The notes below the pieces were generated by a model. That model saw only the letters and a program-made list of their open reading frames with translations, was not told the origin of the DNA and searched no databases. A stretch of DNA of 64,000 nt from Natrinema sp. SYSU A 869 (GTDB taxonomy: Archaea; Halobacteriota; Halobacteria; Halobacteriales; Natrialbaceae), in the NCBI RefSeq assembly GCF_019879105.1, contig NZ_CP082249.1, forward strand, positions 2,294,001 through 2,358,000. Direction: 5' to 3'. A program made the position numbers and the translations under genes. How positions within the stretch are numbered: the first letter of the stretch is position 1; each line of letters starts with the position of its first letter. Positions 1,968 through 56,847 of this stretch are shown in pieces.

Positions 1968-1985
1968 CCATTACAGAACCACAGC

Positions 1986-2432
1986 ATGTCTTCCAACGCC
2001 GATTCCGACGACCCGATTCGCATCGCCTTCATGTGCGTCCAGAACGCTGGCCGCTCCCAGATGTCCACCGCGTTTGCCGAACGTGAGCGCGACCGTCGTG
2101 GCCTCGCGGACCGCGTCGAAATTCTGACCGGGGGAACTCATCCCGCCGACAGCGTTCACGAGGGCGTAATCGACGTGATGGACGAGGTCGGCGTCGACCT
2201 GTCCGACCGAACACCGCGGGAGATCACTCTCGACGAACTCCGCTCGTGTGACACTGTGGCGACGATGGGCTGTTCAACGCTTGAGGTCGGCGACGTGGGC
2301 GAAGACGTCGATATCCGCGACTGGGCGCTCGACGATCCGGATGGTTGCGATCTCGAGGCGGTCCGCGAGATCCGCGCCGAGATCGAGCAGCGGGTCGCTG
2401 CGCTGTTCGACGAGTTTAGTTCACTCGAATGA
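1986..2432 (+). CDS. arsC: Arsenate reductase, low-molecular-weight phosphatase type
   Basis: A 148-aa protein opening with the CX5R phosphatase loop CVQNAGRS (Cys17, Arg23) that binds arsenate and supplies the nucleophilic cysteine. A second conserved cysteine follows in MGCSTLEV, and the acid-loop region DWALDDPDG contains the general-acid Asp. It reduces As(V) to As(III), the substrate of the ACR3 pump encoded 18 nt upstream. LMW-PTP-like ArsC enzymes usually take electrons from thioredoxin; no dedicated thioredoxin gene is present here. Last gene of the ars operon. Confidence 0.92.
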   Translation: MSSNADSDDPIRIAFMCVQNAGRSQMSTAFAERERDRRGLADRVEILTGGTHPADSVHEGVIDVMDEVGVDLSDRTPREITLDELRSCDTVATMGCSTLEVGDVGEDVDIRDWALDDPDGCDLEAVREIRAEIEQRVAALFDEFSSLE

Positions 2433-2523
2433 GAACGGGACCGTTATGAGAGCATCGCCGTTTGTGAAGTCGTCGTCGCCGCACGAGTGGTTCAACCCAG
2501 CGTCGATGCACCACATCCGCGGA

Positions 2524-3771: not shown

Positions 3772-3841
3772 TACGCGTCAGTAGCGCTGGCGGGGTCACT
3801 ATATTTACGTTCTCTAGTCGATCCATTGGTTCACTCACCTC

Positions 3842-4264
3842 TCATCGCTGGACCGCGAGAACGGGAACGTCTCCGTCCCGAAGGACGCGTTCAGTGACGC
3901 TTCCCATGAGAAATCGGCCGACACCAGAGCGGCCGTGGGTACTCATCACGATGAGATCGATATCGTGATCTTCTGCGTACGTCAGGATCGTCCGGGCCGG
4001 GTCGCCCATTTCGACTGTACCGACCGCATGGATATCGCGCGACAGCGCCTCCTCGACGATACGTTGCGTCGAATCGTTCCCTTCGTCGCGGAGCGTTTCC
4101 AGTTTCTCGTCGCCCTGACCGACAATGGTGGTGCTTTCGCTCTTTTCGACGACCGTCAGGACATGGACGGTCGCGTCGTACCGTTCCCCGAGGCTGTAAG
4201 CGTGGTTCGCCGCGTGTATCGCCGCCTCGCTTCCGTCAGTCGGAACGAGCACTGCGTCGTACAT
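3842..4264 (-). CDS. Universal stress protein (UspA family)
   Basis: A 140-aa single-domain Usp protein. The ATP-binding signature G-2x-G-9x-G(S/T) is present near the C-terminus (STHGRSGVGRFLMGSVTERV), and the N-terminus MYDAVLVPTDGSE is typical. It probably dimerises in the cytoplasm and binds ATP or AMP. It lies 70 nt upstream of the CLC-like gene on the same strand, so co-transcription and a role in modulating or protecting membrane transport are plausible but inferred. Confidence 0.9.
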   Translation of the reverse strand: MYDAVLVPTDGSEAAIHAANHAYSLGERYDATVHVLTVVEKSESTTIVGQGDEKLETLRDEGNDSTQRIVEEALSRDIHAVGTVEMGDPARTILTYAEDHDIDLIVMSTHGRSGVGRFLMGSVTERVLRDGDVPVLAVQR

Positions 4265-4414
4265 ACACCAACTAACACCGGGGACCGACTAATATGCTGT
4301 CGAGGATCGCCCCCTATCTTCGGAGCAGCGACACCGTCTCGTCCAGACACGAGTTCACGACGAATGACGACTCCGTGTCGGTGTTCAGGGTAATCCAACA
4401 ACTGACCGACCGAT

Positions 4415-4921
4415 TCAACGGCTGATCGGGACGTATTCACCGAACGACCACTCGTGGAGTACCAGTTTGTGGATTGTGACGAGGACGACGATGGCGAGCA
4501 TGATGAACGCGCCGTCAGCGAGTGACGAGAGAAATCCGAGCGAGACGATTAGCGTCGTCGCACAGGCCGGCGGGTGGACGGTGTCGGTCGCGAGCATCCC
4601 GCCCGACGTGAGCATCACGGCGAAGACACCACTGGCGGCGAGTCGTAACTGCGCGGTCGCGAGCATCGGTCTGGCCGTCGTGACGCCGAGGCCAGCCGCA
4701 ACTGAGTGATATGCTATCAACCCGGCCACGACGCCGATGAGATGACCGCCGACAACCCGTCGGGACGTGGTCACCTCGCTGTCCCGAACTGTGGCTAACA
4801 GGAAGGCGGAGGGGCCGAGGCTCGGAAAGATGAGGGTCCGTCCAGTGACCCAGGCAAGCACGCCCAGAATCGTGAGAAGTACGCCGGAATACAGGGTCGA
4901 AAATGCTATTCCTTCCCTCAT
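4415..4921 (-). CDS. HPP-family integral membrane protein
   Basis: A 168-aa protein with four to five predicted membrane helices and the family motif HPPACATTLI near residue 127. An early FPSLGPSAFLL segment is also characteristic. Some HPP proteins have been implicated in nitrite transport into chloroplasts or cyanobacteria, but the family is poorly characterised and I do not assign a substrate. It heads the minus-strand group that includes the Usp and CLC-like genes. A perfect palindrome lies 30-43 nt upstream of its start. Confidence 0.82.
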   Translation of the reverse strand: MREGIAFSTLYSGVLLTILGVLAWVTGRTLIFPSLGPSAFLLATVRDSEVTTSRRVVGGHLIGVVAGLIAYHSVAAGLGVTTARPMLATAQLRLAASGVFAVMLTSGGMLATDTVHPPACATTLIVSLGFLSSLADGAFIMLAIVVLVTIHKLVLHEWSFGEYVPISR

Positions 4922-4950
4922 TACGGTATCCTATTGGCAGTACGCACAGA

Positions 4951-4964
4951 TAGGTGTTCACCTA
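4951..4964 (-). promoter_or_regulatory. 14-bp palindrome upstream of the HPP gene
   Basis: TAGGTG-TT-CACCTA is perfectly symmetric and lies 30-43 nt before the HPP start codon, at or just above the expected TATA/BRE position of a leaderless promoter. It is a candidate operator for the HPP-Usp-CLC group. No neighbouring regulator other than ArsR is evident. Confidence 0.4.
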
Positions 4965-5101
4965 ACATTGGTACTCTCGACGATACGCTGTTCACTCTAG
5001 GGTCGCGTTAGCGTCCGTCAACGTAGCCCTGCTGGCGGAGTCATCCGCCGATCCACTGCGAGAGCCCTGCCGAAAACGTAAGGAGACCGGGCTTCGGAGG
5101 A

Positions 5102-6133
5102 ATGGTCGTGACGCTTGCTGGTGCCGTTGCGACGGGTCCGGATCTCCTCCGACTTGTCGCCATCCCCGTCTTCGCCTGGACTGCCTACCGCGACATCGAG
5201 ACCAGACGGGTCTCGAGCACCGTCTGGATCCCCCTCACGCTGCTGGGAACTGCGTTGCTGGTCTGGGATGGCTGGCTAGCCTGGAGCGCCGGCGGGACCG
5301 CTTGGACCTACGAGTTCCTGATCCCGACGGCGATCAGTCTCGGATTGGTCGTCCCCATCGCCTACCTGTTCTGGTGGTTCGGCGGCTTCGGCGGGGCCGA
5401 CGCAAAGGCCTTGCTCGTCCTCGCGGTCCTCTTCCCGACGTTTCCAGAGTATGCGCTCGGCTCGTGGACGCTCCCACTCGAGTCGCCGCCGACGATCGGC
5501 ACGTTCTCGTTTACGATCCTGACGAACGCCGTCCTCGTGGGCGTTGTGCTCCCGCTCGTCCTCGCCGTTCGCAACGCCGCCGCGGGCCGGATCGCGCCGG
5601 TCATGTTTGTCGGTTGGCCGATCTCTTGGGAGCGGATTCCGGAGACCCACGGCCGCCTGCTCGAGACGCCGGCGGGCCTTTCCCGCGGCGGCCTCGACCT
5701 CGACGCGCTGCGGATGTACCTCCGCTGGCGGGGGCTCTCGCTGGCCGAGTTGCGCGAGCGACCCGAGCCATACCGGAACCCGGCGACCCTGCCCGCCGAG
5801 CCGAACCCGCCGACCGACGGCGCGGTGACCGCGGACGTGACCGTTCGTGGAGACGGCGGCGCACTCGAGTCGGACGCCGACGAGACGGGGCTTGAGCAGG
5901 GTTCGGAGACCGCCCCCGAGTACGGCGATCCCTGGGGTGCCGAGGCGTTCCTGGACGACATCGACGGCTCGGCCTACGGCACGACACCCGAAACGCTTCG
6001 TGACGGTCTCGAGGTCCTCGCGACTGAAGAGACGGTCTGGATCTCGCCGGGGACGCCGTTTCTCGTCCCGATCTTCGTCGGACTGGTGATCGCGCTGGTG
6101 TACGGCGATCTGTTGCTCGGAACGCTGTTCTAA
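5102..6133 (+). CDS. pibD: Archaeal prepilin/preflagellin peptidase (A24 family)
   Basis: A 343-aa membrane aspartyl peptidase. The two catalytic aspartates are recognisable: one in YRDIETRRV after the first helix (about residue 30) and one in GGFGGADAKAL (about residue 101), the archaeal form of GxGD. Membrane segments fill residues 1-165. A hydrophilic acidic region (about 200-315) and one C-terminal helix follow, the layout I expect for haloarchaeal PibD. It cleaves type III signal peptides of pilins and archaellins at the cytoplasmic membrane face. No pilin gene is in the window. Symbol by family resemblance. Confidence 0.85.
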   Translation: MVVTLAGAVATGPDLLRLVAIPVFAWTAYRDIETRRVSSTVWIPLTLLGTALLVWDGWLAWSAGGTAWTYEFLIPTAISLGLVVPIAYLFWWFGGFGGADAKALLVLAVLFPTFPEYALGSWTLPLESPPTIGTFSFTILTNAVLVGVVLPLVLAVRNAAAGRIAPVMFVGWPISWERIPETHGRLLETPAGLSRGGLDLDALRMYLRWRGLSLAELRERPEPYRNPATLPAEPNPPTDGAVTADVTVRGDGGALESDADETGLEQGSETAPEYGDPWGAEAFLDDIDGSAYGTTPETLRDGLEVLATEETVWISPGTPFLVPIFVGLVIALVYGDLLLGTLF

Positions 6134-42399: not shown

Positions 42400-43031
42400 A
42401 GGAACGAGATAGCTATAAATCCGGCGCGGCCTCTCAGTGGGAGAGTCGCGTCGTGACCACCCCCGTCTCGAGCGGCCGGTTTCGGTCGTCGATCACTGAC
42501 GGCGGACGTGGACGACCGTGAGACCGCCGGTTCCCGTCGTCTCGGTCCTGTGAACCGGGGACTCTCATTCCGGGCCGGATCGCCCGAGAAACGCGATGTT
42601 CTCGATTGCACTCTCGGAACCCGTCTCCGTCTCGAAACCCACACCGCAAAGGTGTAATTTTCATGCCATCATATGGCTACTTCTGAACTATTATTTAGTA
42701 ATCCTATAAATATAATATATACTATGTGTGCGTCCCCTATCGAACCAGTCTTCCTTTGTTGGGAAAAACCACCTTATATAGCCGTTTCAACGCTCTACTA
42801 TCGCTTTGACTAGCCCGATAGCCCTGAAAACAGAATCGCTATTATCCAGATAACTGAGCGTGTATCGACTGTCATAAGAATTATTTTTGCACCCCGTGGA
42901 TGTAATATCCACCACAAAAGTCACAAATTTTATAACCTTCTGGTCGGATTGTAGTGCGAGAGGGGGTCGAACTCCTCGGCGTTCCAAGTGGACGGAGTAC
43001 AGTCTCGTTCGCTGGGAGCGAGAATCACACC
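42400..43031 (+). promoter_or_regulatory. Promoter region of the cellulosome-like cluster
   Basis: This 632-nt gap has no convincing gene. From 42660 it becomes unusually AT-rich (AACTATTATTTAGTAATCC, ATAAATATAATATATACT). A TATA box TTTATAACC lies at 42929-42937, 95-103 nt upstream of the first GH5 ATG, so the transcript should carry a leader of about 75 nt. Just upstream of that TATA box, GTGGAT-GTAAT-ATCCAC (42896-42912) is a perfect inverted repeat, a candidate site for a carbon-source regulator. Confidence 0.5.
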
Positions 43032-44891
43032 ATGTCAGAGAATACGAACCCAACCGATTCAGAGGCACAGTCGAATAGCGCCAGTCGGGACAGCTCGACG
43101 TCACGCCGAACGATACTGCAGGCCACGGGGACGAGCGTGCTCGCAGTCGGCGGTCTCGGTAGCATCGCGGGCTCTGCAGTGGCCCAAGAAGCCACCCTCC
43201 CGCCGTTAGCCCGAGACGGAAACAAGATCGTCGATCCGAGCGGAAACGAAGTCATCCTTCGGGGAGTGAACATCGCCGATCCGGGCGAACAGAGCCGGCA
43301 GTGGCGGGGTCAGACCGCTCCCGAGACGTTCGAACTAGCCACCGACGAGAGCCAGGGGTGGCATACCAACATCGTCCGGGTACCGGTAATGCCTTCGTTC
43401 CTCGCGGCCGGGACGCGCGCCCCCGCACCGCACGAGATGCCCCACGGCGACGACTGGGGTCCGGCCCTGCCGGGACAGTTCGATAGAACCGACGTCAGGT
43501 GGTACTGTCAGACCTATCTCGACGATCTCGTCGAACTCGGTGCCCAGCGCGGCGCCTATGTGATGATCGACTACCACCGTCACTACCCGATCTTCCATCA
43601 GGAGGACCACAAGAACCACGGTGTCGATGGGAACGTCTGGCAGTGTTCGTCCGACGGGGGCGAAGACTGGCGAAATCCGGAGGTCTGTGGCGAGCGCGGC
43701 GTACTCTGGCACGGTGAGGACCAGGTCGACGAGATCTGGAACTTGATCGACGAACAGAACATTCTCGAGGCGTTCGACCTCGAGGAAGACGACATCTATC
43801 TCGAGCCCCCGGAGATTACGAACGCGCTCGACGAGGAGTTACACCTGTTCTGGGAGGTCGTCGCCGACCGATACGCCGAGGACGACCACGTGATCTTCGA
43901 CGTCTACAACGAGCCGACCGGCCCATACGGCGGCGACTGGGGCGGCCCACAGCGACAGGCGGGCGAACTCTCCGATCCGGCGGTAGCTCCCGGCGAGGGA
44001 GATGCGAACGATTACGACGCCGCTCACGAGGACATGAAAGCCTGGTACGACCTGTGGGTCGATCGCGCCCAGCCGTGGGTTGACACGGTCGAGAACAACG
44101 CGCCCGGTCACCTGATTACGATCGGGAGTCCACGGTGGAGCCAGTACACCTACTGGGCACCGTACAACGAGTTCGATGCCGAGAACATGTGTTATACCGG
44201 CCATGTCTACACGCAGGACGGCCTGCGGCCGCTCACGAAGTACTTCGGCGAACCGTCCGAACACGTCCCGGTCTTCTTCAGTGAGTTCGGGTGGATCGAA
44301 GGCGGCGGCAAGCACGTCGATACGCCCTGGATGGACTGTAGCGGCGAACACGGTGGCGACTGTGAGCCCTATATTCAGGAGTACGAGGAGTTCATCAAGA
44401 ACTACGACGTCCACCCGCTGGCGTGGTCGTTCGACCACACCTATGAGCCGAATATGTTCGAGCACGGGACGCCGGGAGCGAACGACGGCGCGAAGGGTGC
44501 CGACGACTGGATGAACTACCTGAACGACGAGACGCCCGGCGTCTGGTGGCACGAACTGAACCAGGAACTAGCCGGCGACCGCGACACCTTCGCGCCCGGC
44601 GAGGACCCGTACCCGGACGCCGACAACGGGAAGAACGACAAGCACGTCGGTCCCGGTCCGATCGACGGTGACGAGACGATCTCGGTCGGCGACCACGAGG
44701 CACGGGATACGAACGACGACGGTCTGTACAACGACGTCGACGGAGATGGAGAGACGACACACGAAGACGTCAACGCCTTCTTCGAGAACCTCGAGTCCAA
44801 CGGCGTCCAGAACAACCCTGACGCCTTCGACTTCGACGAGAACGGTCAAATCGGCTTCTCGGACGTTCTCGATTTGCTTCGTCGAACCTAA
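43032..44891 (+). CDS. Exported GH5 glycoside hydrolase with dockerin-like tail (1)
   Basis: A 619-aa protein. Tat signal SRRTILQAT (Arg25-Arg26), processing probably near AVAQ (residue 52). The GH5 domain spans about 55-510: VILRGVNIADP, a metal- or substrate-side YHRHYP, acid/base Glu294 in VYNEPTGPYG, IGSPRWSQ, and nucleophile Glu418 in FSEFGW. A Cys/His/Trp-rich insertion (190-240) is unusual. A dockerin-like module (547-619) has calcium loops DVDGDGETTHED and DFDENGQIGFSD. Probable beta-1,4-glucanase. It heads the cluster, 165 nt before the scaffoldin gene. Confidence 0.88.
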   Translation: MSENTNPTDSEAQSNSASRDSSTSRRTILQATGTSVLAVGGLGSIAGSAVAQEATLPPLARDGNKIVDPSGNEVILRGVNIADPGEQSRQWRGQTAPETFELATDESQGWHTNIVRVPVMPSFLAAGTRAPAPHEMPHGDDWGPALPGQFDRTDVRWYCQTYLDDLVELGAQRGAYVMIDYHRHYPIFHQEDHKNHGVDGNVWQCSSDGGEDWRNPEVCGERGVLWHGEDQVDEIWNLIDEQNILEAFDLEEDDIYLEPPEITNALDEELHLFWEVVADRYAEDDHVIFDVYNEPTGPYGGDWGGPQRQAGELSDPAVAPGEGDANDYDAAHEDMKAWYDLWVDRAQPWVDTVENNAPGHLITIGSPRWSQYTYWAPYNEFDAENMCYTGHVYTQDGLRPLTKYFGEPSEHVPVFFSEFGWIEGGGKHVDTPWMDCSGEHGGDCEPYIQEYEEFIKNYDVHPLAWSFDHTYEPNMFEHGTPGANDGAKGADDWMNYLNDETPGVWWHELNQELAGDRDTFAPGEDPYPDADNGKNDKHVGPGPIDGDETISVGDHEARDTNDDGLYNDVDGDGETTHEDVNAFFENLESNGVQNNPDAFDFDENGQIGFSDVLDLLRRT

Positions 44892-45056: not shown

Positions 45057-47306
45057 ATGAACGACGACATCGATACGCACGACGAGGAACAGTTCGCCGA
45101 AACCGATCGCCCGACGGACACGTCCACATCACGACGCACCTTCATGCGGGCCGCCGGTGCCAGTGCGGGTGCACTCGCACTCGGGACGTCGACGGTCGCG
45201 GCCCAAGCAGACAGCCCGACGGTGACGGTCGACATCGCCGACGAACAGATTCAATCCGGTGAGACGACGACTGCGACGGTCCGGCTCGAGAACTCCCCTG
45301 TCGGTTCGATCGGCTCTGCCGTCGAAATCGCGCTCGATCCGGACGTCGCCCAGATCACCGAAGTAGAAGGTGGTGACTACTTCCCGGAGAGCCCCCTCGA
45401 TTTAGAGGAGAGCGTCAACGAGGATATCGAAGAGGCGGGTGGCTCCGTCTCGCAACTCCGTGTCCAGCCGTACGCGCCGGATGGAATCAACGAGACCGGG
45501 TACGAGGTGGCGACCTACCACCTCGAGGCTCAGGGTGAGGGCACCACTGAGATCGAGCTCGTGGATATCATGCTGACCATTCCCGACGGAGACAATATCT
45601 ACGGCGCCAACTACGATGCATCGACACTGACCGTCGGTGACGTCATCGATGAGCCCGTCACGCCCGCAATGCCGTCGGACCTCGAGGTCGTCGCCGAGAA
45701 CGAGACATCGGTCGAGGTCGCGTGGAGCCCCGTGTCGAACGCTGTCGAATATGCCGTCTCAGTCGATGGCGAGCAGGAATCCACGACGACCTCGAGTAGC
45801 GCAACTATCACTGGACTCGAGGCAGACACCACCTACGAGATCGGTGTCAGCGCTCTCGGCGAGGGCGACACGATGTCCGAGACGGTGACGGTTCAGGCGA
45901 CGACGGTCACCGGTGCGGAGCCGGAGACGCCCACGCTCACGGTCAACCTCGACGATGCGGTGATCGATCCGGGCGAGACGACGGCCGTCGACCTCGGCCT
46001 GAGCGAAGCGCCGGACGGTGTGGTCGGATTCACTATTGAGGTCGGTATCGATCCAGACGTTGCGACCTTCGCCGATGCCGAACTCGGCGAACTGTTTGTT
46101 GACGCTCAGGAGATGTTCAAGACCGTCGAGGTCGAAGACGACTACGCGAAACTCAAGGCGCTCGATCCCGTCGACGCTGGGACCACTGACATCGAGTTCG
46201 GTCGGATCGACCTCGAGGGTGTGGCAGACGGCGAAACCGTCGTCGATGTCGACATTATCCGACTCGAGGACAATGTTGACAACGTTGCTATCGAACCGAC
46301 GGTCGAAGAGGCGATGCTCACCGTCGGTGACGGCGAGCCGGACAGCAAACCGCCGAGCGTCCCCGAGGATCTTGAGGTCGTCGCCGAGACTGAAACGTCG
46401 GTCGAGGTCGCGTGGAGCACCGATCCGAACGCCATCGAGTACAACGTCTCGGTTGATGGCGAGCAGGAAACAACCACGACCGCGAGCAGCGCCACCGTCA
46501 CTGACCTCGAGTCCGGTACCACCTACGAGATCGGTGTCAGCGCCGTCGGTGCGGACGACACGGAGACCGACGCCGCGACGGTTACTGCCACGATCGCAGA
46601 AGCCAATACGCCGCCGAGCACGCCCGAGGGACTCGAGGTCGTCGACGAGACCGAGACATCGGTCGAGGTTGCATGGAGTTCCGATCCGAACGCCGTCGAG
46701 TACAACGTCTGGGTTGACGGCGAGCAAGAAACTACCCTGAGTTCGACCAGTACCACTGTCACCGACCTCGAGTCCGGTACCACCTACGAGATCGGTGTCA
46801 GCGCCGTCGGTGAAGACGGCACGGAGACCGACGCCGCGACGGTTACTGCCACGACCGCGGACACGGACGATGGCGACGGAAATGACGGCGACTACCCCGA
46901 GTGGGACACTAACACGCTCTATCAGGAAGGCGACCACGTCCACTGGAACGGTGAGAACTGGGTCGCACAGTGGACGAACAAGGACAAAGAGCCCCGCTAC
47001 GAGGACCTCTACGCGTGGGAACCGGTCGACGGCGAGATTCCGCTCGAGGTAGACCACTTGGCGACGATCGATCCGAGCGCTACAGATGTCGACGCCGGCG
47101 AGCGCATCGACGTCCGGGCGACGGACAACACCCCCGACGATATCTGGATTGACGGACTTCAGTGGGACTTCGATGACGGAACGACTGCCAGCGGCTGGCA
47201 CGCCGGCCATTCCTTTGATTCCAGTGGGGCCTACACGGTGACGCTCACTGCGACGGACCAGCGGGGACGCGAGACCACCCACGAGGTCGAGATCACGGTC
47301 GCCTGA
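45057..47306 (+). CDS. Scaffoldin-like protein: two cohesin-like modules, FnIII x3, CBM5/12, PKD
   Basis: A 749-aa Tat-exported protein (SRRTFMRAAG; cleavage near residue 50) without a catalytic domain. Cohesin-like module 1 (54-196) shows VTVDIADEQIQSGETTTATV, IALDPDVAQITEVEGGDYF and the strand YEVATYHLEAQGEGTTEIEL; module 2 (292-425) shows the same order with VGIDPDVATFADAELGELF. FnIII modules lie at 203-284, 433-514 and 519-600. A CBM5/12-type module (613-657) has six Trp/Tyr including WDTNTLYQEGDHVHWNG and WVAQW. A PKD-like domain ends the protein (664-749). GGAG 8 nt before the ATG is a Shine-Dalgarno. No anchor helix, dockerin or SLH domain is seen. The cohesin reading is from pattern, not a profile search. 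Confidence 0.78.
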   Translation: MNDDIDTHDEEQFAETDRPTDTSTSRRTFMRAAGASAGALALGTSTVAAQADSPTVTVDIADEQIQSGETTTATVRLENSPVGSIGSAVEIALDPDVAQITEVEGGDYFPESPLDLEESVNEDIEEAGGSVSQLRVQPYAPDGINETGYEVATYHLEAQGEGTTEIELVDIMLTIPDGDNIYGANYDASTLTVGDVIDEPVTPAMPSDLEVVAENETSVEVAWSPVSNAVEYAVSVDGEQESTTTSSSATITGLEADTTYEIGVSALGEGDTMSETVTVQATTVTGAEPETPTLTVNLDDAVIDPGETTAVDLGLSEAPDGVVGFTIEVGIDPDVATFADAELGELFVDAQEMFKTVEVEDDYAKLKALDPVDAGTTDIEFGRIDLEGVADGETVVDVDIIRLEDNVDNVAIEPTVEEAMLTVGDGEPDSKPPSVPEDLEVVAETETSVEVAWSTDPNAIEYNVSVDGEQETTTTASSATVTDLESGTTYEIGVSAVGADDTETDAATVTATIAEANTPPSTPEGLEVVDETETSVEVAWSSDPNAVEYNVWVDGEQETTLSSTSTTVTDLESGTTYEIGVSAVGEDGTETDAATVTATTADTDDGDGNDGDYPEWDTNTLYQEGDHVHWNGENWVAQWTNKDKEPRYEDLYAWEPVDGEIPLEVDHLATIDPSATDVDAGERIDVRATDNTPDDIWIDGLQWDFDDGTTASGWHAGHSFDSSGAYTVTLTATDQRGRETTHEVEITVA

Positions 47307-47526: not shown

Positions 47527-47592
47527 AGTACCAATATGCGGCGAATCGCAGACACTGCGGACGAAGACACGCGAATCAGTGAGGAAACACCA

Positions 47593-49650
47593 ATGCAATC
47601 GCACGATACCACACAGCAGACGGACGAATCGACAGCAACGAACGAGAACACGCGCCGGAGCGTCCTTGCGCAAGCGGAGACCGACGGAACGTCGCCGATC
47701 ACTCTCACTCGGCGCAACGTGATGCGAACGACTGCTGCCGCGGGCGTTGCCGGCCTCGGACTGAGCGCCGGCTTCGCCGGTACTGCGGCAGCCGGAGGGA
47801 TCGACGAGTTCCAGAACCTGACGGTCAGCAGCGATAACCGGATCGTCAACGAGGACGGCGAGACGTTCAAGATGCGGGGGCTCAGCATTCCCGATCCGAA
47901 GCGACTCCACCGGACGCGGAACCTTCGCGGGAAGACGCCGGAACAGCTCCTCGATATGGTGACGAACAACGAGGCGGGCTGGCACCCGCGGGTCATCCGC
48001 GTTCCCGCCCAACCACAGGACATCGGCGAACATCCGATGGGTCACACCGGGCCCGAGTACGAATACGGCGAACTCGAGTCTCCGCAGGCGGTCGACAGCG
48101 ACCGGCGGAAGCAACGGCCGGCGCAGCCGTCGGCGTTCACGCAGGCGGAACTCGAGGACTATCTCGACAACTACTACGAACCGATCGTCGAGCGCTGCAA
48201 GGAGCGTGGCGTCTACTGCATCATCGACTATCACCGGCACTGGCACGAGCAGCCACCGGGCATCGAGCAGCCCTCGTACGCCGAGAACCACTTGCCGTAC
48301 AACAGCGACTACACGAACTACTGGGCGTACAACAGCCACGAGATGTTCGGCGAGGACGAACCGGGTTCCTGGGGGTACGTCGATCAGACGTACATCGAGA
48401 ACACCCCTGGCGACGATTACGTCGAGGGTCTCAACGAGGGCAACCTCGAGGGAACGCCGTACGCGTACGAGAACTGGACGGTCAACCAGGAGTTGCTCGA
48501 CGAGGTCCTCATGTTCTGGGACGAGGTAGCCGAGCGGTACGCCGACGAGCCTCATGTGATCTTCGAACCGTACAACGAGCCGACCGCACCGGGTATCTGG
48601 GGTCCCGTCGACGGCTGTGGAGCATTCAAACAGAAGCCCCTCTGGGACACGTTCCTCGACGACTTCATGGGCCCGATCATTGAGAAGATCCGAGAGTACC
48701 AGTCCGACCGCGTTCTGCTGGTCGGCGTCCCCGGCTGGTGTCAGTCGGTCCAGGCGCTCCACTGGCGGAACTTCAACGACGCGGGCTACGACAACATCGC
48801 CGTCACCTGGCACAACTACGCGGGCCACGACGTTAGCCAGATGAACAACTGGTTCAACGACACGGACTACCAGAGCCCCGAGGCTGTCGAGGCCGAAACC
48901 GGGGAGGAACTCGAGAGCCCGTACCTCCCGGTGGACGACGACCCCTACGAGCCAGCATGCTACGGCTGGGAGGCCTATGAGGCGGCCGGGCTTCAGAACG
49001 CGATGGACCATCACCCCGTCGCTATCACCGAATTCGGCTGGATCAACAACGCGGACGTCTCCCATTGGCTGCGCGGAACGACCACCGGTCAGGGCACGCT
49101 CCCCGAATACGGCGTTCCCTTCCTCGATCAGGTCGAGCAGGACGACCGAATCAGCTGGGTCGGCTGGTGTGCTGACGTCCGCTGGCTGCCGAAAATGTTC
49201 GAGGTTCCGTGGGAGACCGAAGAGGGCGAACTCGACCTCGTCAACGACAACTTCTACGACACGTCATTTGAGGACATTCCGGTCGGTTGCGAAGACCCAC
49301 CCTGTGAGTGGACCCTGATCGGTGGCGAGGACAGTGGCGTGTACCTCAAGCAGATGCTCGGGGAGCACAAGGACGATACGGTGCCGTTCGACACGAGGAC
49401 CGTCGGCGACCCTGAAGATCCCGACGGCGACGAGACGATCTCGGTCGGCAGCCACGAGGCCCAAGACACGGACGACGACGGCCTGTACGAAGACGTCACC
49501 GGCGACGGGGAGACGACCCACGAGGACGTCGACGCCTTCTTCGAGAACCTCGAGTCCGACGGCGTCCAGGACAACCCCGGACAGTTCGACTTCGACAAGA
49601 GTGGACGGGTCAGCTTTGCGGACGTCATCGAGTTGCTGCGGAAGATCTGA
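47593..49650 (+). CDS. Exported GH5 glycoside hydrolase with dockerin-like tail (2)
   Basis: A 685-aa protein with Tat motif TRRNVMRTTAAAG (Arg40-Arg41) after a long polar head. GH5 domain about 75-600: FKMRGLSIPDP, YCIIDYHRHWHE, acid/base Glu329 in EPYNEP, WHNYAGHD and nucleophile Glu480 in ITEFGW. A region of about 100 residues between YHRH and the acid/base (220-300, rich in Tyr/Asn) is inserted relative to gene 4 of the set. The tail (about 613-685) is dockerin-like with loops DVTGDGETTHED and DFDKSGRVSFAD. I chose ATG 47593 over 47536 because the TATA box lies too close to the latter and GAGG precedes the former. Confidence 0.88.
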   Translation: MQSHDTTQQTDESTATNENTRRSVLAQAETDGTSPITLTRRNVMRTTAAAGVAGLGLSAGFAGTAAAGGIDEFQNLTVSSDNRIVNEDGETFKMRGLSIPDPKRLHRTRNLRGKTPEQLLDMVTNNEAGWHPRVIRVPAQPQDIGEHPMGHTGPEYEYGELESPQAVDSDRRKQRPAQPSAFTQAELEDYLDNYYEPIVERCKERGVYCIIDYHRHWHEQPPGIEQPSYAENHLPYNSDYTNYWAYNSHEMFGEDEPGSWGYVDQTYIENTPGDDYVEGLNEGNLEGTPYAYENWTVNQELLDEVLMFWDEVAERYADEPHVIFEPYNEPTAPGIWGPVDGCGAFKQKPLWDTFLDDFMGPIIEKIREYQSDRVLLVGVPGWCQSVQALHWRNFNDAGYDNIAVTWHNYAGHDVSQMNNWFNDTDYQSPEAVEAETGEELESPYLPVDDDPYEPACYGWEAYEAAGLQNAMDHHPVAITEFGWINNADVSHWLRGTTTGQGTLPEYGVPFLDQVEQDDRISWVGWCADVRWLPKMFEVPWETEEGELDLVNDNFYDTSFEDIPVGCEDPPCEWTLIGGEDSGVYLKQMLGEHKDDTVPFDTRTVGDPEDPDGDETISVGSHEAQDTDDDGLYEDVTGDGETTHEDVDAFFENLESDGVQDNPGQFDFDKSGRVSFADVIELLRKI

Positions 49651-49832
49651 GCGTCACTCAGTGAGTGGCGGACTGGTGACGGAGTCGGAACGCGTTCGCG
49701 TCGGGGAACCAGCTGTTGGGGACCCGGGGACGCTCACGGGCCTTCCGGTCCGTGAGCAAGCGTTCTGTCTGCACACCATTTGAACGAACTATACGAAAAC
49801 AAATCCAAATTGACACGTTGGAATTAAAAGGT

Positions 49833-51989
49833 ATGAAAGAAACTCACTTGCACTTCAATAAGAACGGTTCGGACACGCCGAGGCGGACTCTCGGTCGCCG
49901 GTCCGTACTGGGATCGATTGCGGCACTCGGAACAGGCTACGTCGTCGCGTCGACGGCAGCGGCCCAATCGTGGTCGGACATCGACGATCCGTACTACGCG
50001 ACCCTCGCGGATGACCTCGCAGCACGCGGACTCCCGCAAGGGGAGTTCTGCTACGGTGACAGCGAGGCCGAGACGATGGACGCCTACGACGTCATCGGAG
50101 ATGTCGAGGCGACGGCGATTGAGGCCCCGGATGATCTCCCGTTCAACGAGGCGATGCGCCTCGAAGTCAGCGACGACGTCTCCGATCCGTGGGACGCAAT
50201 CCTGAACGCGACGGTCGAGGACCGCGGTGTGGAAGCGGGCGACGTCTTGTTGGGCGTCGCATATCTTCGGGAGGGGCCAGCGAGTGCAACCGAGGGCGTC
50301 GTTCAGTACACCGCCAAGGACGAGGACAACACCGAAACCAGCGAGGTGGTCAATGCTGCTACCCCCTCGCTCCCTCGCGAGTGGCGTCGGTTCTTCTTCC
50401 GAATCGAGTTCGACTACACGAGTGATCCCGGCGACTGGTGGACGGAGTTCTTCCTGGGATACGATTCGCAGACAGTCGATGTCGGCGGCCTGGCCCTGTT
50501 GCAGTTCGGGGGATCGGTTTCGACCGACGACCTACCCGACTCCGATATCGATTTCGGCTACGACGGCCGCGCTGAGGATGCAGCTTGGCGGCAAACGGCC
50601 CGCGAGCGGATCAACGAGATTCGTCGGGCACCGCTCACCGTCACGGCCACCGACGAGAACGGCGAGCCGATCCCCGACGCCGAGGTCGAGGTGGAGATGC
50701 AGGAGCACGAGTTCGGCTTCGGCAGCGCCGTCGCCGTCGATGAACTGCCCTCGAACGAGCAGTACCAGGACGTCTTCCTCGAGAACTTCAACGAGGCAGT
50801 CACGGAGAACGGCCTCAAGCGGGGCGCGTGGGACGGCGAGTTCGGCTCGAGCTTGGGCCCCGAGAATACGACGGCCGCGGTCGATTGGCTCAATCAGCAC
50901 GATGTCCCGACTCGAGGGCACACGCTCCTGTGGGGGACGTACGACGCCATGGGCGTCGATACGGGCCAGTCCGAGTCAGAAATCGTCGCGGAGATCGAGA
51001 GCGCGATCCGCGAGCGTGCCGCGGCGATGGACGGGCAACTGCTGGAGTGGGACATGCACAACCATCCGGTGATGTATCCCGAGATCACCGACGACCTCGG
51101 GCGAGAGCGGGTCGTCGACTGGTGGTCGGCGGCGATCGACGAGGCTCCTGAGACGCCCATGTGGGTCAATGAAGGTCGAGTCCTCTCGGCACGCAACGGC
51201 AACCGCGAGCCGTACCACGAGTACCTCGAGTGGCTCGAGGGCATCGAGGCCGATATTGGCGGTATCGGGTTCATGGGCCACTTCGGCGTGGATTACCTGC
51301 GCCCGCCAGCGGACCTCCTCGAACTCTTCGACGAGTTCGCCGCGTTCGACGTCCCGCTGAAGATCACCGAGTTGGACATTACCCTCAACGACTCGATGGA
51401 CGAAGACCAGATCGCGGCCCGTCGTGACTACATGCGCGATCTCCTCATCGCGGCCTACAGTCACGAGGCCCTCGAGAGCGTCCTCCACTGGGGATTCTGG
51501 GCGAATCAGCACTGGCGGCCGTCGGCGGCGCTGTACGACGAGGACTGGACGCTCCGTGCACACGGCGAGATCTATCGGGAGCTCGTCTTCGAGGAGTGGT
51601 GGACGGACGAGGCCGGATCGACCGACGCCGACGGGAAGTACACGACCGATGCGTATCTGGGCGACCACGAGGTGACGGTGACGGTCGGCGAGGCGCAAAC
51701 GACCGAATCCGTCTCCCTCACAGCTCCCGACGACACCGCCGAGCTGACGGTCGATATCGATAGGGCTACCGACACGATCGAGGTCGGCAAGTACGAGCCC
51801 CAGGACACGACTGGCGACGGTCGCTACGACGATGTCACCGGTGACGGGGAGACCACCCACGAGGACGTCACCGCGTTCTTCGAGAACCTCGAGTCCGATG
51901 GCGTCCAGACCAACCCTGACGCCTTCGACTTCGACGAGAACGGCCGCGTCGGCTTTGCGGATGTCCTCGCACTCCTTCGGGATGTCTGA
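49833..51989 (+). CDS. Exported GH10-like protein with dockerin-like tail, altered acid/base
   Basis: A 718-aa protein. Tat motif GRRSVLGSIAALG; N-terminal jelly-roll-like carbohydrate-binding region (about 60-235); short carboxypeptidase-regulatory-like strand domain (LTVTATDENGEPIPDAEV, 268-285); GH10-type barrel (about 290-590) with RGHTLLWG (361-368) and nucleophile Glu513 in KITELDI. Where GH10 enzymes have WDxxNE, this protein has WDMHNHP, His411 in place of the acid/base Glu. It may be inactive, act differently, or bind polysaccharide only. A beta-rich linker (593-645) leads to the dockerin-like tail (646-718). Confidence 0.8.
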   Translation: MKETHLHFNKNGSDTPRRTLGRRSVLGSIAALGTGYVVASTAAAQSWSDIDDPYYATLADDLAARGLPQGEFCYGDSEAETMDAYDVIGDVEATAIEAPDDLPFNEAMRLEVSDDVSDPWDAILNATVEDRGVEAGDVLLGVAYLREGPASATEGVVQYTAKDEDNTETSEVVNAATPSLPREWRRFFFRIEFDYTSDPGDWWTEFFLGYDSQTVDVGGLALLQFGGSVSTDDLPDSDIDFGYDGRAEDAAWRQTARERINEIRRAPLTVTATDENGEPIPDAEVEVEMQEHEFGFGSAVAVDELPSNEQYQDVFLENFNEAVTENGLKRGAWDGEFGSSLGPENTTAAVDWLNQHDVPTRGHTLLWGTYDAMGVDTGQSESEIVAEIESAIRERAAAMDGQLLEWDMHNHPVMYPEITDDLGRERVVDWWSAAIDEAPETPMWVNEGRVLSARNGNREPYHEYLEWLEGIEADIGGIGFMGHFGVDYLRPPADLLELFDEFAAFDVPLKITELDITLNDSMDEDQIAARRDYMRDLLIAAYSHEALESVLHWGFWANQHWRPSAALYDEDWTLRAHGEIYRELVFEEWWTDEAGSTDADGKYTTDAYLGDHEVTVTVGEAQTTESVSLTAPDDTAELTVDIDRATDTIEVGKYEPQDTTGDGRYDDVTGDGETTHEDVTAFFENLESDGVQTNPDAFDFDENGRVGFADVLALLRDV

Positions 51990-52058
51990 CTGGCGACCGA
52001 GCAGCGACGAGCGACCGAGACAGCAATCACAGCGACAACAGCGAGACAGCACACGACC

Positions 52059-53597
52059 ATGACCATGAACGAACACGAGATACGACGAGAACGGAACAGC
52101 GACGAACCAACGACCCGCGGCGATCGATCGCCACCAAACGCAACCGACTCCGACGCGGTGAGCAGCCCTGAATCGAGTCGCACACGCCACTCCCGACGGG
52201 GCTTTCTCGCGATGGCCGGCGTCGGCACGGCCGGCGTAGCGGCCAGTGTGCTGGCTGACCCCGCACGCGCCGCTGACGGCACGGCCGACCGAGGAATCGA
52301 AACCCCGTGGCTCGAGCGCGACGGGAACGTGCTCCGCGATCCGACTGGAAACGAGGTCGTGCTCCGCGGTGTCAACGTGATCGACCCCGCGCGCACGGCA
52401 CGGTCGTGGCGTCGGCCACTCTCGGCGACGATTGATCACGCGACCGACCCCAACAGGAACTGGTATGCGCGGATTATCCGTATCCCAGTCCAGACCGGAG
52501 ACATCGTCTCCGTCGACACGGACGATGGCAGCGTGAGCGGTGAGCCCCAGAACGAAGTCGATCCGGGAACGTTCACCAAGGCACAGCTCGAGGCCTACAT
52601 CGAGCATCACCTCCGACCGGTCGTGGAGTACTGTACGGAGGTCGGCGTCTACTGCATCGTCGACTACCATCGCCACTCAGACACGAGTCTCGAGTACACC
52701 GATCCCGACCTCGACGAGGAGGTCCGGCTGTTCTGGAACACCGTCGCTCCCGAATTCGCCGACGACTCTCACGTTCTCTATGAGGTGTACAACGAGCCGA
52801 TCGGTCCCTACGCCGGCCAGGAGCCGGGCGAGGAGTACGACGTTCACGGTGCTGACGCCGAGCAGACCTGGCTCGAGTGGCGCGAGACCGCCCAGCCATG
52901 GGTCGACACCATTCGGGACCACGCCGAGCGCAACGTCGTCATCATCGGCTCACCGCGGTGGAGCCAGTACACCTACTGGGCACCACACCACGAGTTCAAC
53001 GGAGAAAATCTCGCGTACGCGGGCCACGTGTATGCCGGCCACGACGGGCTGCGGCCGCTCGGGGACTACTTCGGCGAGCCGTCCGAGCAGGTCCCAGTGT
53101 TCCTCACGGAGTTCGGCTATCAGGGCGACGCTGGGACCCCCCTCACGGGAACGACATCCGAAGACGGCGCGGCGTTCGAGGCGTTCTTCGATGAGTACGA
53201 CACCGTTCACCCCCAAATCTGGTGTTTCGACCCGGCCTGGCAGCCGATCATGTTCGATTCCGCCGACGATACCCAGAAGTGGGACCTCCTCGGCGGCGAG
53301 GACTACCAGGGAGAGTGGTGGCAGACGTATCTGGCCGATCGACGCACCGACGACCTCCCCGAGACGAACGGCGGTTCGGATTCGATTGCGGTCGGCGACT
53401 ACGAGGCCCGGGACACGGACGGAGACGGACGCTATGAGGATATCACCGGTGACGGGGAGACGACCCACGAGGACGTCGACGCCTTCTTCGAGAACCTCGA
53501 GTCCGACGGCGTCCAGACCAACCCCGATGCCTTCGACTTCGATGGGAACGGCCGAACCGGGTTCTCGGACGTCATCGAACTGCTTCGGAACGTCTAG
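52059..53597 (+). CDS. Exported GH5 glycoside hydrolase with dockerin-like tail (3)
   Basis: A 512-aa protein with Tat motif SRRGFLAMAGVG (Arg46-Arg47) and probable cleavage near residue 71. GH5 domain about 80-430: VVLRGVNVIDP, YCIVDYHRHSD, acid/base Glu246 in EVYNEPIGPY, GSPRWSQYTYWAP and nucleophile Glu351 in LTEFGY. It shares blocks with GH5 gene 1 (WSQYTYWAP, GLRPL..YFGEPSE) and is its closest relative here, without the insertion. Dockerin-like tail 440-512. It begins 69 nt after the GH10-like gene, probably in one operon with it. ATG 52065 is an alternative start. Confidence 0.9.
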   Translation: MTMNEHEIRRERNSDEPTTRGDRSPPNATDSDAVSSPESSRTRHSRRGFLAMAGVGTAGVAASVLADPARAADGTADRGIETPWLERDGNVLRDPTGNEVVLRGVNVIDPARTARSWRRPLSATIDHATDPNRNWYARIIRIPVQTGDIVSVDTDDGSVSGEPQNEVDPGTFTKAQLEAYIEHHLRPVVEYCTEVGVYCIVDYHRHSDTSLEYTDPDLDEEVRLFWNTVAPEFADDSHVLYEVYNEPIGPYAGQEPGEEYDVHGADAEQTWLEWRETAQPWVDTIRDHAERNVVIIGSPRWSQYTYWAPHHEFNGENLAYAGHVYAGHDGLRPLGDYFGEPSEQVPVFLTEFGYQGDAGTPLTGTTSEDGAAFEAFFDEYDTVHPQIWCFDPAWQPIMFDSADDTQKWDLLGGEDYQGEWWQTYLADRRTDDLPETNGGSDSIAVGDYEARDTDGDGRYEDITGDGETTHEDVDAFFENLESDGVQTNPDAFDFDGNGRTGFSDVIELLRNV

Positions 53598-53756: not shown

Positions 53757-55265
53757 ATGAGTTCCGATAATCGTGCGGGCGAGAAGCGGCCAACCGAACG
53801 AGTGGACCAGCGATCACTGCGACCAACGCGACGGGCGTTCGTGAAAGCGGCGGGCGTCGGGACGGCTGGCCTCGCACTCGGTGGGATGGGTGGATCCGCA
53901 GCGGCGGTCGATAATCCGACACCGCGCCTACAAACCGACGGGAAATGGATTGTTACCGGTGACGGACAGCGGGTGAAACCCCGTGGAGTCTCGCCGGCGT
54001 CGCTGGATTACCTCGAGTCGATACACCCCAAGAGTCAGCAGGAGATCCTCGAGCACGCGACCAACGGAACGGAGTGGCACCCGAACACGGTCCGACTGCC
54101 GGTCGTGGAAGACGCGGTCCACGAGCAAGGGATGCAGTACGTCGTCGATGAACTCCTGCGGCCGGCCGTCGACGTGCTCGCCGATCGGGGCGTCTACGCG
54201 ATGATCGACTTCCATCTCATTCGACCGTACGTGGAGGCCCTGAGTCACGGGGAAGGAATGGTCGAGGACGGCTGGGCGGACAGCCTTGATGACCTCGGCT
54301 TCGATCCCCACGTCGGCACCGACGACCTGTTGACGGAGTTCTGGAGCGCAGTGGCTCCGGCGTTCGCCGACGACGAAAACGTCCTCTTTGAACTGTTCAA
54401 CGAACCGACGCTCCCCGTCACGTGGTCGACCTACGGGGAACACGGTTCGGCGGTCCAGACGAGGGAAGACGAGTGGATGCTCTGGCGCGACACCGCCCAG
54501 TCGTGGGTCGACTCGATCCGGGACGAGGCACCCGAGACGCCGATCATCATCGGCTCACCCGACTGGACCTCCCGAACGAAATTCGCCGCCGAGTACCCCT
54601 TCGACGGGGAGAATCTGATCTATTCCGGCCACATATACCCGGACAACGGCCTCCCACATGACACGCTCGAGCGGGGAGACGAAGGTGATACGTACGAGGT
54701 GGGTCCGTTCGATCCCGAGTACGGTGCGCCCGCCGAGGAGGTCCCCGTTATCATTACCGAATTCGGCTGGGATCCCGACGAAGACTTCCGAGAAAGCGTC
54801 GAATTCGGCACGACGAGCGGGTGGGGCGAACCCGTCCGCGAGTGGCTAGAGTCCTACGAGAACATGGGCTGGATCGCCTGGTGTTTCGACGACACGTGGG
54901 CACCAACGTTCTTCGACTCGCCCGGTGATGGGGCCGGTGAACCTTGGGAACTGAAAGACGGAGACGAACAGATGGGCTGGTTCATCCGCGAGTGGCTCGA
55001 GGAGAGGAAAGACGACGTGATCGTCGGCGGTGGCAACGACGGGAGCGACACGATCGCGGTCGGCGACTACGAGGCGCGGGATACGGACGACGACGGGCTG
55101 TACAACGATGTCGATGGAGACGGGGAGACGACCCACGAAGACGTCGACGCGTTCTTCGAGAACCTCGAGTCCGGCGGCGTTCAGGACAACCCCGAGGAGT
55201 TCGATTTCGATGAGAATGGTCAAACCGGATTCGCGGACGTTCTCGAACTGCTCCGGCGGACCTGA
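53757..55265 (+). CDS. Exported GH5 glycoside hydrolase with dockerin-like tail (4)
   Basis: A 502-aa protein; Tat motif TRRAFVKAAGVG (Arg25-Arg26), cleavage near AAAV (residue 51). GH5 domain about 60-420: RVKPRGVSPAS, YAMIDFHLIRP, acid/base Glu216 in ELFNEPTLP, IIIGSPDW, GHIYPDNG and nucleophile Glu335 in ITEFGW. The substrate-side FHLIRP replaces the YHRH found in genes 1-3, so specificity may differ. Dockerin-like tail about 429-502. The preceding 159-nt gap holds ACATTTTATTTGG about 45-55 nt before the ATG, suggesting its own promoter. Confidence 0.9.
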   Translation: MSSDNRAGEKRPTERVDQRSLRPTRRAFVKAAGVGTAGLALGGMGGSAAAVDNPTPRLQTDGKWIVTGDGQRVKPRGVSPASLDYLESIHPKSQQEILEHATNGTEWHPNTVRLPVVEDAVHEQGMQYVVDELLRPAVDVLADRGVYAMIDFHLIRPYVEALSHGEGMVEDGWADSLDDLGFDPHVGTDDLLTEFWSAVAPAFADDENVLFELFNEPTLPVTWSTYGEHGSAVQTREDEWMLWRDTAQSWVDSIRDEAPETPIIIGSPDWTSRTKFAAEYPFDGENLIYSGHIYPDNGLPHDTLERGDEGDTYEVGPFDPEYGAPAEEVPVIITEFGWDPDEDFRESVEFGTTSGWGEPVREWLESYENMGWIAWCFDDTWAPTFFDSPGDGAGEPWELKDGDEQMGWFIREWLEERKDDVIVGGGNDGSDTIAVGDYEARDTDDDGLYNDVDGDGETTHEDVDAFFENLESGGVQDNPEEFDFDENGQTGFADVLELLRRT

Positions 55266-55359: not shown

Positions 55360-56847
55360 ATGACTTCGGACAAACGCACGACAGACGAGTACGGAATCGA
55401 TCGACAGAACGGATCGACGCGGCGCCGCTTCGTGAAAGCGATCGGTGCGGGCGCGATGGTTGCCCCTTTCGCCGCCAGTACGGCGGCGGCCGCGACGGAA
55501 CCGACGACCGACCCCGACGACCTCGCATACGTCGAGACGGACGGGACCGAGTTCGTCGTCGACGGCGAGCCGGTCTACTTCAACGGGGCGAACAACTTCT
55601 GGATAACAGATAATTACGAAGGAACGAAGCAGTGCGTCGACGACGTTTTCGATCTCTTTCAGGACCTGGGCATCGATCTCGTGCGGTTCTGGGCCCACGG
55701 CGAGGGCAAAGACGGCCCCCTCTCACTCCAGCCGGAACCCGGCGAATACAACGAGGACGCCCTCGAGAACCTCGATTACCTGATCGAGGCGGCCAGAGAG
55801 CGCGGCATCAGGCTCATCGCGACGCTCGTGGACAACTGGGACCACGAAGGCGGGATGCTCCAGTACGCCGAGTGGGCGGGTGCCGAGTCCCGCTATGAGT
55901 TCTACACGATGGACGAGACGCGCGGTATGTACCGCGACCACGTCGAGACGATCCTCACTCGGGAGAATACCTACAGCGGAATCGAGTGGCGCGAGGATCC
56001 GACGATCGCGCTGTGGGAACTGGCCAACGAACCGCGTCTCGAGCAAAGCGATGTGCCCGCGGAGATGGATAACCTCGAACCGCCCGAACATCGCGAAACC
56101 CTCGGCGACTGGTTCGCCGACATATCAGAATACATCAAGGACCTCGACGGCAACCACCTCGTCTCGACGGGGTCGGAGGGCCACTACTACGGAACCTGGG
56201 AGGACGACTACCCGAACGACGATTGGGATGGCCAGGACTACGTCGGCCACCACTCGATCGACACGATCGACGCCTGTTCGTTCCACCTGTATCCCGACCA
56301 CTGGGACTTCCCGCTCGAGGACGGGGCGGCGTACATCCGAGACCGTGTCGTCGACGCCCACGAGGAGATCGGCAAGCCCGCCTATCTCGGTGAATTCAAC
56401 GTCGATACACAGCAACACGGGCTCGAGACCAGAACCGAGTTCCTCGACGAGTGGTACGACGTCGCCGACGAGTATGACTGCAACGCCGTCCTCCCGTGGC
56501 AGGTCGTCCTCGAGGACACCGAGGACCACGACGGATTCCAGCTGTACGCGAGCGAATCCGGGCATCTCATCGAGGAGTACGCGGCGGTCGTCGCGGAGAA
56601 GAGCGGCGGTGAGGACAATTCCGACCCAGAGACGATCCCGGTCGGCGAGTACGAAGCCAGAGACACGACCGGCGACGGGCGCTACAACGACGTCACCGGC
56701 GATGGGGAAACCACTCACGAGGACGTCGACAGCTTCTTCGAACACATCGAGTCCGCCGGCGTTCAGGACAATCCCGAGCAGTTCGACTTCGATGAGAACG
56801 GTCGAATCGGGTTTTCCGACGTCCTCGAACTCCTTCGGCAAGTCTGA
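55360..56847 (+). CDS. Exported GH5 mannanase-like hydrolase with dockerin-like tail (5)
   Basis: A 495-aa protein; Tat motif TRRRFVKAIGAG (Arg21-Arg22), cleavage near TAAAA. The GH5 domain (about 55-415) is of another subfamily: FVVDGEPVYFNGANNFW, LVRFWAHGEG, acid/base Glu224 in WELANEPR, CSFHLYPDHW and nucleophile Glu345 in LGEFNVD. This set resembles endo-beta-1,4-mannanases (GH5 subfamily 7-like) rather than cellulases; the subfamily is inferred from pattern. Dockerin-like tail about 422-495 with EHIESAGVQ, slightly divergent from the others. It lies 94 nt after gene 4 and probably shares its transcript. Confidence 0.88.
   Translation: MTSDKRTTDEYGIDRQNGSTRRRFVKAIGAGAMVAPFAASTAAAATEPTTDPDDLAYVETDGTEFVVDGEPVYFNGANNFWITDNYEGTKQCVDDVFDLFQDLGIDLVRFWAHGEGKDGPLSLQPEPGEYNEDALENLDYLIEAARERGIRLIATLVDNWDHEGGMLQYAEWAGAESRYEFYTMDETRGMYRDHVETILTRENTYSGIEWREDPTIALWELANEPRLEQSDVPAEMDNLEPPEHRETLGDWFADISEYIKDLDGNHLVSTGSEGHYYGTWEDDYPNDDWDGQDYVGHHSIDTIDACSFHLYPDHWDFPLEDGAAYIRDRVVDAHEEIGKPAYLGEFNVDTQQHGLETRTEFLDEWYDVADEYDCNAVLPWQVVLEDTEDHDGFQLYASESGHLIEEYAAVVAEKSGGEDNSDPETIPVGEYEARDTTGDGRYNDVTGDGETTHEDVDSFFEHIESAGVQDNPEQFDFDENGRIGFSDVLELLRQV

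Follow-up and report, generated by a model that had tools for sequence, protein, structure and literature searches.

Dockerin tails of a haloarchaeal cellulase cluster probably evolve in concert by in-place gene conversion

A cluster of dockerin-tailed enzymes in Natrinema

The 64,000-nucleotide stretch of DNA analyzed here (the window) comes from the 5.67-megabase haloarchaeal genome of Natrinema sp. SYSU A 869 (genome G000 in our labels; NZ_CP082249.1, positions 2,294,001 to 2,358,000, our contig C3). It contains six plus-strand genes, g1 to g6, encoding five GH5 enzymes and one GH10 enzyme that each end in a 65-residue tail, and a scaffold-like gene with cohesin-like domains between g1 and g2. 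An initial annotation, made from the sequence alone, counted the same six genes and proposed that tail DNA is homogenized between genes with diverged catalytic domains. Our data bear this out, and suggest that the tails evolve in concert through repeated in-place gene conversion between neighboring enzyme genes of one genome. We put the probability of this reading, jointly with that of a 66-nucleotide (nt) identity between g2 and g4 representing either a single young tract or a few that overlap, at a little over three in four.

The GH5 genes are g1 (42954–44891, tail 44694–44888), g2 (47536–49650, tail 49453–49647), g4 (52059–53597, tail 53400–53594), g5 (53757–55265, tail 55068–55262) and g6 (55360–56847, tail 56650–56844), and the GH10 gene is g3 (49716–51989, tail 51792–51986). 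Enzyme families were assigned with Pfam (Cellulase, E = 2.5e-18, for g1) and tails with a tail profile. By eye, all six proteins start with a twin-arginine motif, which in g1 is of the twin-arginine translocation (Tat) type. A genome search found only one further tail in G000, at C3:1424517, beside another cohesin-like gene.

A comparison with NCBIfam assigned none of the seven cluster proteins to a family. When the 70 tails that we compared across genomes (see below) were scanned alone, 57 matched PF00404 (Dockerin type I) at E ≤ 0.01. In whole-protein Pfam scans the window tails fell under the gathering score of this family, with those of g4 and g5 unmatched at E 0.1, and in the genome search one window tail exceeded that score. 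An AlphaFold model of a tail (predicted local distance difference test, pLDDT, 86.8) placed dockerins at the top of the PDB ranking, with template modeling scores of 0.52–0.60 versus 0.25–0.29 for calmodulins, at Foldseek E values that were all above 0.7. By profile and predicted fold, the tails classify as type I dockerins with two putative calcium loop-helix segments.

Tails group by genome and catalytic domains by enzyme

In an order-wide scan, such tails were found in 159 of 392 genomes. We took 13 stretches from eight tail-rich genomes, which together with G000 make up nine genomes of Natrinema-like and same-family haloarchaea, including Natrinema ejinorense (G258), Natrinema salsiterrestre (G341) and Halopiger goleimassiliensis (G140). 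In all nine clusters, the tailed enzymes adjoin a scaffold that has two or three cohesin-like domains. Tails with a score ≤ 60 were dropped, as were those lying beyond the stretches taken and, where loci overlapped, copies that were duplicated or cut at an edge. With up to 15 candidates scored per genome, we retained 70 tails (retained/hits: G000 6/7, G258 7/9, G214 5/7, G211 6/6, G341 6/7, G140 7/8, G122 9/13, G179 9/13, and G353 15 of at least 15). The GH10 gene g3 did not enter any of the ortholog-group tests.

In a tree of the catalytic domains, the five enzyme groups each form one clade, and enzyme group requires 4 changes. In the tail tree, enzyme group requires 22 changes and genome 17 (0 of 200 shuffles as low), while six genome clades require 6 (minimum 5). 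Approximately unbiased tests rejected each of the five enzyme groups as a single tail clade (p = 4.6e-14 to 3.1e-4). Seven genomes were compared by identity, giving 21 pairs, two of them sister pairs. Across the 19 non-sister pairs, orthologous tails are without exception as close as non-orthologous ones (within 0.03 amino-acid identity; 0.62 and 0.63, for instance, between G000 and G341), and the catalytic orthologs in the same pairs are 0.77–0.87 identical. Orthologous tails are still the closer ones in the two sister pairs (0.86 versus 0.78, and 0.92 versus 0.86).

The genome-wise pattern is seen in tail column 24, which lies in the first calcium loop, where the specificity residues of bacterial dockerins are located. 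Within a genome this column hardly varies, and several genomes differ from one another in it. It is E in G000 (6/6), G214 (5/5), G258 (7/7) and G140 (6/7), A in G353 (12/15), G in G341 (6/6) and G211 (5/6), and D in both G122 and G179 (9/9 each). We also considered whether conversion favors neighbors, and rejected this idea: adjacent tails are closer by a mean of only 0.0095, and 50 of 1000 gene-order shuffles gave a difference as large.

Synonymous codons in the tails are also concerted

We compared quartets for each enzyme pair and genome pair, scoring a pattern as concerted when paralogs within each genome agree, crossed when genes agree crosswise, and orthologous when orthologs agree. Under independent evolution, concerted and crossed patterns should be about equally frequent. 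The catalytic domains of the GH5 groups g1, g2, g4, g5 and g6 in seven genomes (G122 and G179 excluded) served as a control; genome-specific codon usage would raise concerted counts, and the catalytic parts of these same genes show little excess. Summed over 21 non-independent genome pairs, synonymous codons gave 352 concerted, 111 crossed and 128 orthologous patterns in the tails, versus 157, 136 and 1844 in the catalytic parts. The corresponding amino-acid counts in the tails are 1210, 92 and 143. When codons were swapped under a codon-wise null for single genome pairs, 3 of 1000 replicates were as extreme for G000/G353 and 1 of 1000 for G258/G353.

Tail quartets thus follow the genome at synonymous sites and catalytic quartets do not. 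Among paralogs of one genome, the synonymous-codon identity of the tails (0.59–0.89, depending on region and genome) exceeds that of the catalytic domains (0.53–0.65), and we did not see, among either paralogs or relatives, the equal synonymous divergence of tails and catalytic domains that would speak against homogenization. The synonymous data support concerted evolution of the tails of the kind produced by gene conversion, with a signal that is weaker or absent in the sister pairs. In the sister pair G000/G214, nucleotide patterns in the tails are mostly orthologous (147 orthologous, 23 concerted, 11 crossed).

A 66-nt tract is identical in g2 and g4

The g2 and g4 tails share a block of 66 nt (49504–49569 and 53451–53516, both on the plus strand), which direct comparison confirmed to be identical. 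The block is in the same reading frame in both genes and comprises 22 codons, DGETTHEDVDAFFENLESDGVQ. Over their last 79 codons including the stop codon, the two tails are 76% identical. The initial annotation described the other tails as nearly as close, which does not hold: the other 14 tail pairs are 73–83% identical over the same codons, and their longest common runs span 12–33 nt. It also overstated the divergence of the catalytic domains of g2 and g4, which it saw as sharing only motifs; both are GH5 domains, identical at 35% of amino acids across 426 aligned codons.

We held the six tail proteins fixed, redrew their codons from the usage of the six genes' catalytic parts, and recorded the longest run among the 15 pairs in 20000 sets. 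A 66-nt run appeared in 0 of the 20000 (median of the longest run 24 nt, 99.9th percentile 50), and likewise in 0 of 20000 with the tails' own codon usage, ruling out codon bias as the sole cause of the run. Where g2 and g4 encode the same residue, their codons are identical at 22 of 22 positions inside the block versus 16 of 28 outside it (Fisher p = 0.00025), the latter being about what codon bias predicts. In a Sawyer-type run test, with the polymorphic codon columns of each genome shuffled, all codons together gave p = 0.002 in G000, 0.0105 in G258 and 0 of 2000 shuffles in G179, and the other six genomes did not fall below 0.05. With silent codons only, the value for G000 was 0.046.

The homogenization had been called recent. 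In G000, synonymous identity is 0.78 in the block, 0.60 in the tails outside it and 0.53 in the catalytic parts, with 0.55 expected at saturation, which argues that homogenization is young in the center and old elsewhere. The label thus suits the central block and not the rest of the tails, nor the mostly orthologous tails of G000 and G214.

Tails appear to be rewritten where they sit

Along the enzymes of non-sister genomes, ortholog identity stays at 0.80–0.88 as far as roughly 85 residues before the C terminus and drops to 0.61–0.70 beyond that point, and the identity of same-genome paralogs rises across the same border from 0.26–0.33 to 0.75–0.88. The linkers are gene-specific right up to the dockerin; the g1 linker, for instance, reads PYPDADNGKN or PYPDADNGEN in 7 of the 7 genomes displayed. 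Past the stop codon, identity is 0.25–0.30 and homology ends. With every enzyme retaining its particular linker in the genomes compared, and no sequence in common downstream of the stop codon, the module seems to be rewritten in place, and gene conversion fits better than re-fusion.

An orphan tail in the sister genome G214 (locus L042, 7702–7890) preserves a direct trace of this process. It has no enzyme and lies between g2 and g4 at the place of g3; the GH10 gene (the catalytic part of g3) is gone, and the orphan's downstream flank matches the window's g3 flank. Nucleotides 25–120 of the orphan match g2 of G000 at 93 of 96 positions, with a 71-nt run, and g3 at 80, and its last 69 nt match g3 at 62 positions and g2 at 49. 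This tail is a mosaic of g2 and g3.

The neighboring scaffold is the probable receptor

The scaffold-like protein (45057–47306, plus strand, 749 residues), annotated with Pfam, AlphaFold and Foldseek, contains two cohesin-like domains, three fn3 domains, a CBM5/12-like carbohydrate-binding module (CBM) and a PKD domain. Its Tat-type signal is weak in Pfam (E = 0.017), and the CBM5/12 match, checked in the window only, is below gathering. The whole-protein Pfam scan missed both cohesin-like domains. The first (45198–45656) matches Pfam Cohesin at 8.2e-4, below gathering, and the second (45912–46346) was identified by a profile match and is 30% identical to the first. Across our set, 16 of 24 such domains match PF00963 (Cohesin) at E ≤ 1 (best 5.8e-6), and a PDB profile search with the cohesin alignment gave marginal matches only (best E = 0.022). 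The AlphaFold model of the first domain is a beta sandwich (pLDDT 84.6) whose top PDB matches are cohesins (E = 5e-9), and the 50 PDB folds among the matches listed are all cohesins or cohesin–dockerin entries. These domains can accordingly be classed as cohesins by profile and predicted beta-sandwich fold.

A cohesin match is present in 121 of the 159 genomes with dockerins and in 5 of the 233 others; among genomes with three or more tails, it is present in 34 of 40. Between non-sister genomes, no part of the scaffold changes faster than the cohesins (identity 0.35–0.58 for the first and 0.49–0.70 for the last, versus 0.62–0.84 for the fn3-CBM-PKD part). The receptor of the tails is probably the neighboring two-cohesin scaffold. 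A single receptor for all tails, as the initial annotation assumed, is plausible; since the scaffold's two cohesin-like domains are only 30% identical, there may be two. We examined whether cohesins and dockerins co-diverge beyond general divergence, and found partial correlations of 0.46 and 0.28 with catalytic identity held constant, which over 21 non-independent pairs are too weak to support this.

Two fn3 repeats of the scaffold, 2 and 3 (45672–46876), have a DNA identity of 83% and a synonymous-codon identity of 0.78. They are at least as similar to each other as each is to its G258 counterpart (0.63 and 0.76 synonymous), and may be homogenized too. We saw no anchoring partner in the window. 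Short, separate genes, each encoding one cohesin-like domain, stand beside the scaffold in G353 (L045, 10964–11677), G341 (L047, 11439–12155) and G211 (L048, 8916–9638); they have no counterpart in the window cluster and are candidate cell anchors. Larger arrays occur elsewhere. In G265 (C1:2395000–2401000, L060), a 1032-residue protein (1102–4200, minus strand) combines five cohesin-like domains with a dockerin at its C terminus and adjoins a 241-residue frame with one cohesin-like domain, a layout like that of a primary scaffoldin with an anchoring protein. In G368 (C23:284500–293500, L059), a 1768-residue protein (575–5881) with, by eye, a GH5-like catalytic domain and eight cohesin-like repeats is followed by a 278-residue frame with one cohesin-like domain. 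The seventh G000 tail (C3:1424517–1425358) belongs to a cohesin-plus-dockerin protein apparently split over two frames, followed by a 271-residue cohesin-like gene; its counterpart in G246 is a single open frame (L061, 160–2271), 703 residues long when read from an internal start.

Gene conversion compared with other explanations

We envision that short stretches of tail DNA would be copied repeatedly between neighboring enzyme genes within one genome, presumably by host homologous recombination, leaving catalytic domains, linkers and 3′ flanks with their separate histories. Selection would retain the copies because every tail must fit the cohesins of the scaffold, and tails and cohesins would drift jointly, so that each lineage may gain its own recognition code. 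The initial annotation had left open gene conversion or module shuffling, and conversion in place is the part favored here. Shuffling, in which new dockerin copies would repeatedly have been joined to each enzyme gene, lineage by lineage, predicts the same genome-wise clustering of tails and would suit catalytic parts drawn from different GH5 lineages and GH10; however, the gene-specific linkers kept up to the dockerin across genomes, the lack of homology past the stop codon, and the orthologous tails retained by sister genomes make it unlikely. We consider it slightly less likely still that no DNA is exchanged at all, and that one receptor constrains the residues while a narrow codon set does the rest, with lineage-specific residues arising in parallel as tails follow their cohesin. 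Amino-acid patterns in the tails are indeed more concerted than synonymous ones, codon bias alone predicts a synonymous-codon identity of 0.54–0.65, and the first cohesin diverges rapidly, all as such parallel selection would have it. It does not account for synonymous quartets that depart from the catalytic control, for a run length never reached by codon resampling, or for the mosaic orphan tail with its 71-nt run.

A constraint on the nucleotide sequence of the central 66 nt, such as an overlapping signal or codon choice, could have let g2 and g4 keep an ancestral sequence. This would explain why, in the other 14 G000 pairs, synonymous identity is higher in the block region (208/272) than in the rest of the tail (253/420), and why the block is similar in many comparisons between distant genomes. 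Between sister genomes, however, the block is not above the catalytic parts in synonymous identity (0.81 versus 0.83, and 0.80 versus 0.89), and we regard this explanation as very improbable.

Several observations nonetheless weigh against repeated gene conversion and a young central tract. The silent-site run test is weak or null outside G000 (0.088 in G258, 0.165 in G179, and 0.28–1.0 in the other six genomes). Several single genome pairs give no significant quartet signal: 90 of 1000 swaps were as extreme for G000/G341, G122/G179 has 39 concerted versus 40 crossed patterns, and the concerted excess of G000/G258 is not above that of the catalytic domains (ratio 2.2 versus 2.5). Outside the central block, the G000 tails are close to synonymous saturation. 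The block itself is also similar between distant genomes (synonymous identity 0.66–0.90), and the g2 and g4 blocks of G258 differ from those of G000 by 3 of 66 nt and those of G214 by 6 and 4; given this similarity, slow evolution of the block or an old shared version is possible. We tried to place the g2/g4 event after the split of G000 and G214, where 0 differences compare with about 5 to 6.6 expected by our own estimates (Poisson 0.0067–0.0014), and set this dating aside. Because the G258 and orphan versions each match at 63 of 66 positions, both date and direction of the event are uncertain, and we claim neither.

Discussion

In bacterial cellulosomes, secreted glycoside hydrolases carry dockerins, and a scaffold with cohesins and a carbohydrate-binding module is encoded in the same gene cluster. 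By this gene layout, the window and the clusters of eight further genomes would qualify as cellulosome-like. Like clostridial cellulosomes, whose dockerins share recognition residues according to the part of the source available to us (PMC5748583), they combine dockerin-bearing glycoside hydrolases with a scaffold of cohesins and a CBM. They differ in the haloarchaeal host, in a scaffold with only two cohesins and no C-terminal dockerin, in two dockerin loops that by eye are not symmetrical repeats, and in homogenization at the DNA level. The non-cellulosomal cohesin of Archaeoglobus fulgidus (PDB 2xdh), among the Foldseek matches listed, shares the archaeal cohesin fold; here, the cohesins have a set of cellulases and a xylanase, all with dockerins, as neighbors.

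Natronoglomus and Natronobiforma, also Natrialbaceae, are reported to have islands for secreted GH5 and GH10 enzymes with fn3, CBM and type I dockerin proteins; the dockerin is described there as taking part in substrate binding, and the word cohesin is absent from the main text (PMC10963439). These islands resemble the cluster studied here. Another paper names the cellulosome among four models known from bacteria, and the words dockerin and cohesin do not occur in its text (PMC10267330). In the open-access literature we found nothing relevant on dockerins with gene conversion or concerted evolution, and in the portions available no description of haloarchaeal cellulosome-like scaffolds.

Concerted evolution by gene conversion is known from rRNA operons, tuf and nifH, and gene conversion between genome copies of Haloferax volcanii is very efficient with long tracts, according to the sections available of PMC8223754. 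As in those families, insofar as that text describes them, paralogs within a genome are closer than expected and converted patches are short; here, the process affects one C-terminal module of about 70 codons, on catalytic parts that are synonymously saturated or unrelated. We infer that the tracts are short here because the homology spans only about 200 base pairs. Both the evolutionary process proposed and the kind of module that it affects are known; the anatomy is unusually clear, and the setting, haloarchaeal cellulosome-like clusters, seems little described.

A broader proposal, which we offer tentatively and would sooner bet against than for, is that haloarchaea have a genuine cellulosome-like system and that its recognition code shifts as a whole: conversion would rewrite all dockerins of a genome together, cohesins would diverge alongside, and each lineage within a genus would come to hold a private, mutually incompatible code. 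A many-to-one interaction could in this way change its specificity without being broken, since partners that all copy one and the same stretch of tail DNA can move together as a set. The clusters form a series of natural, closely related cohesin–dockerin pairs with preserved enzymes, in which receptor–ligand co-evolution is directly testable, and the finding points to cellulosome-like scaffolds in haloarchaea.

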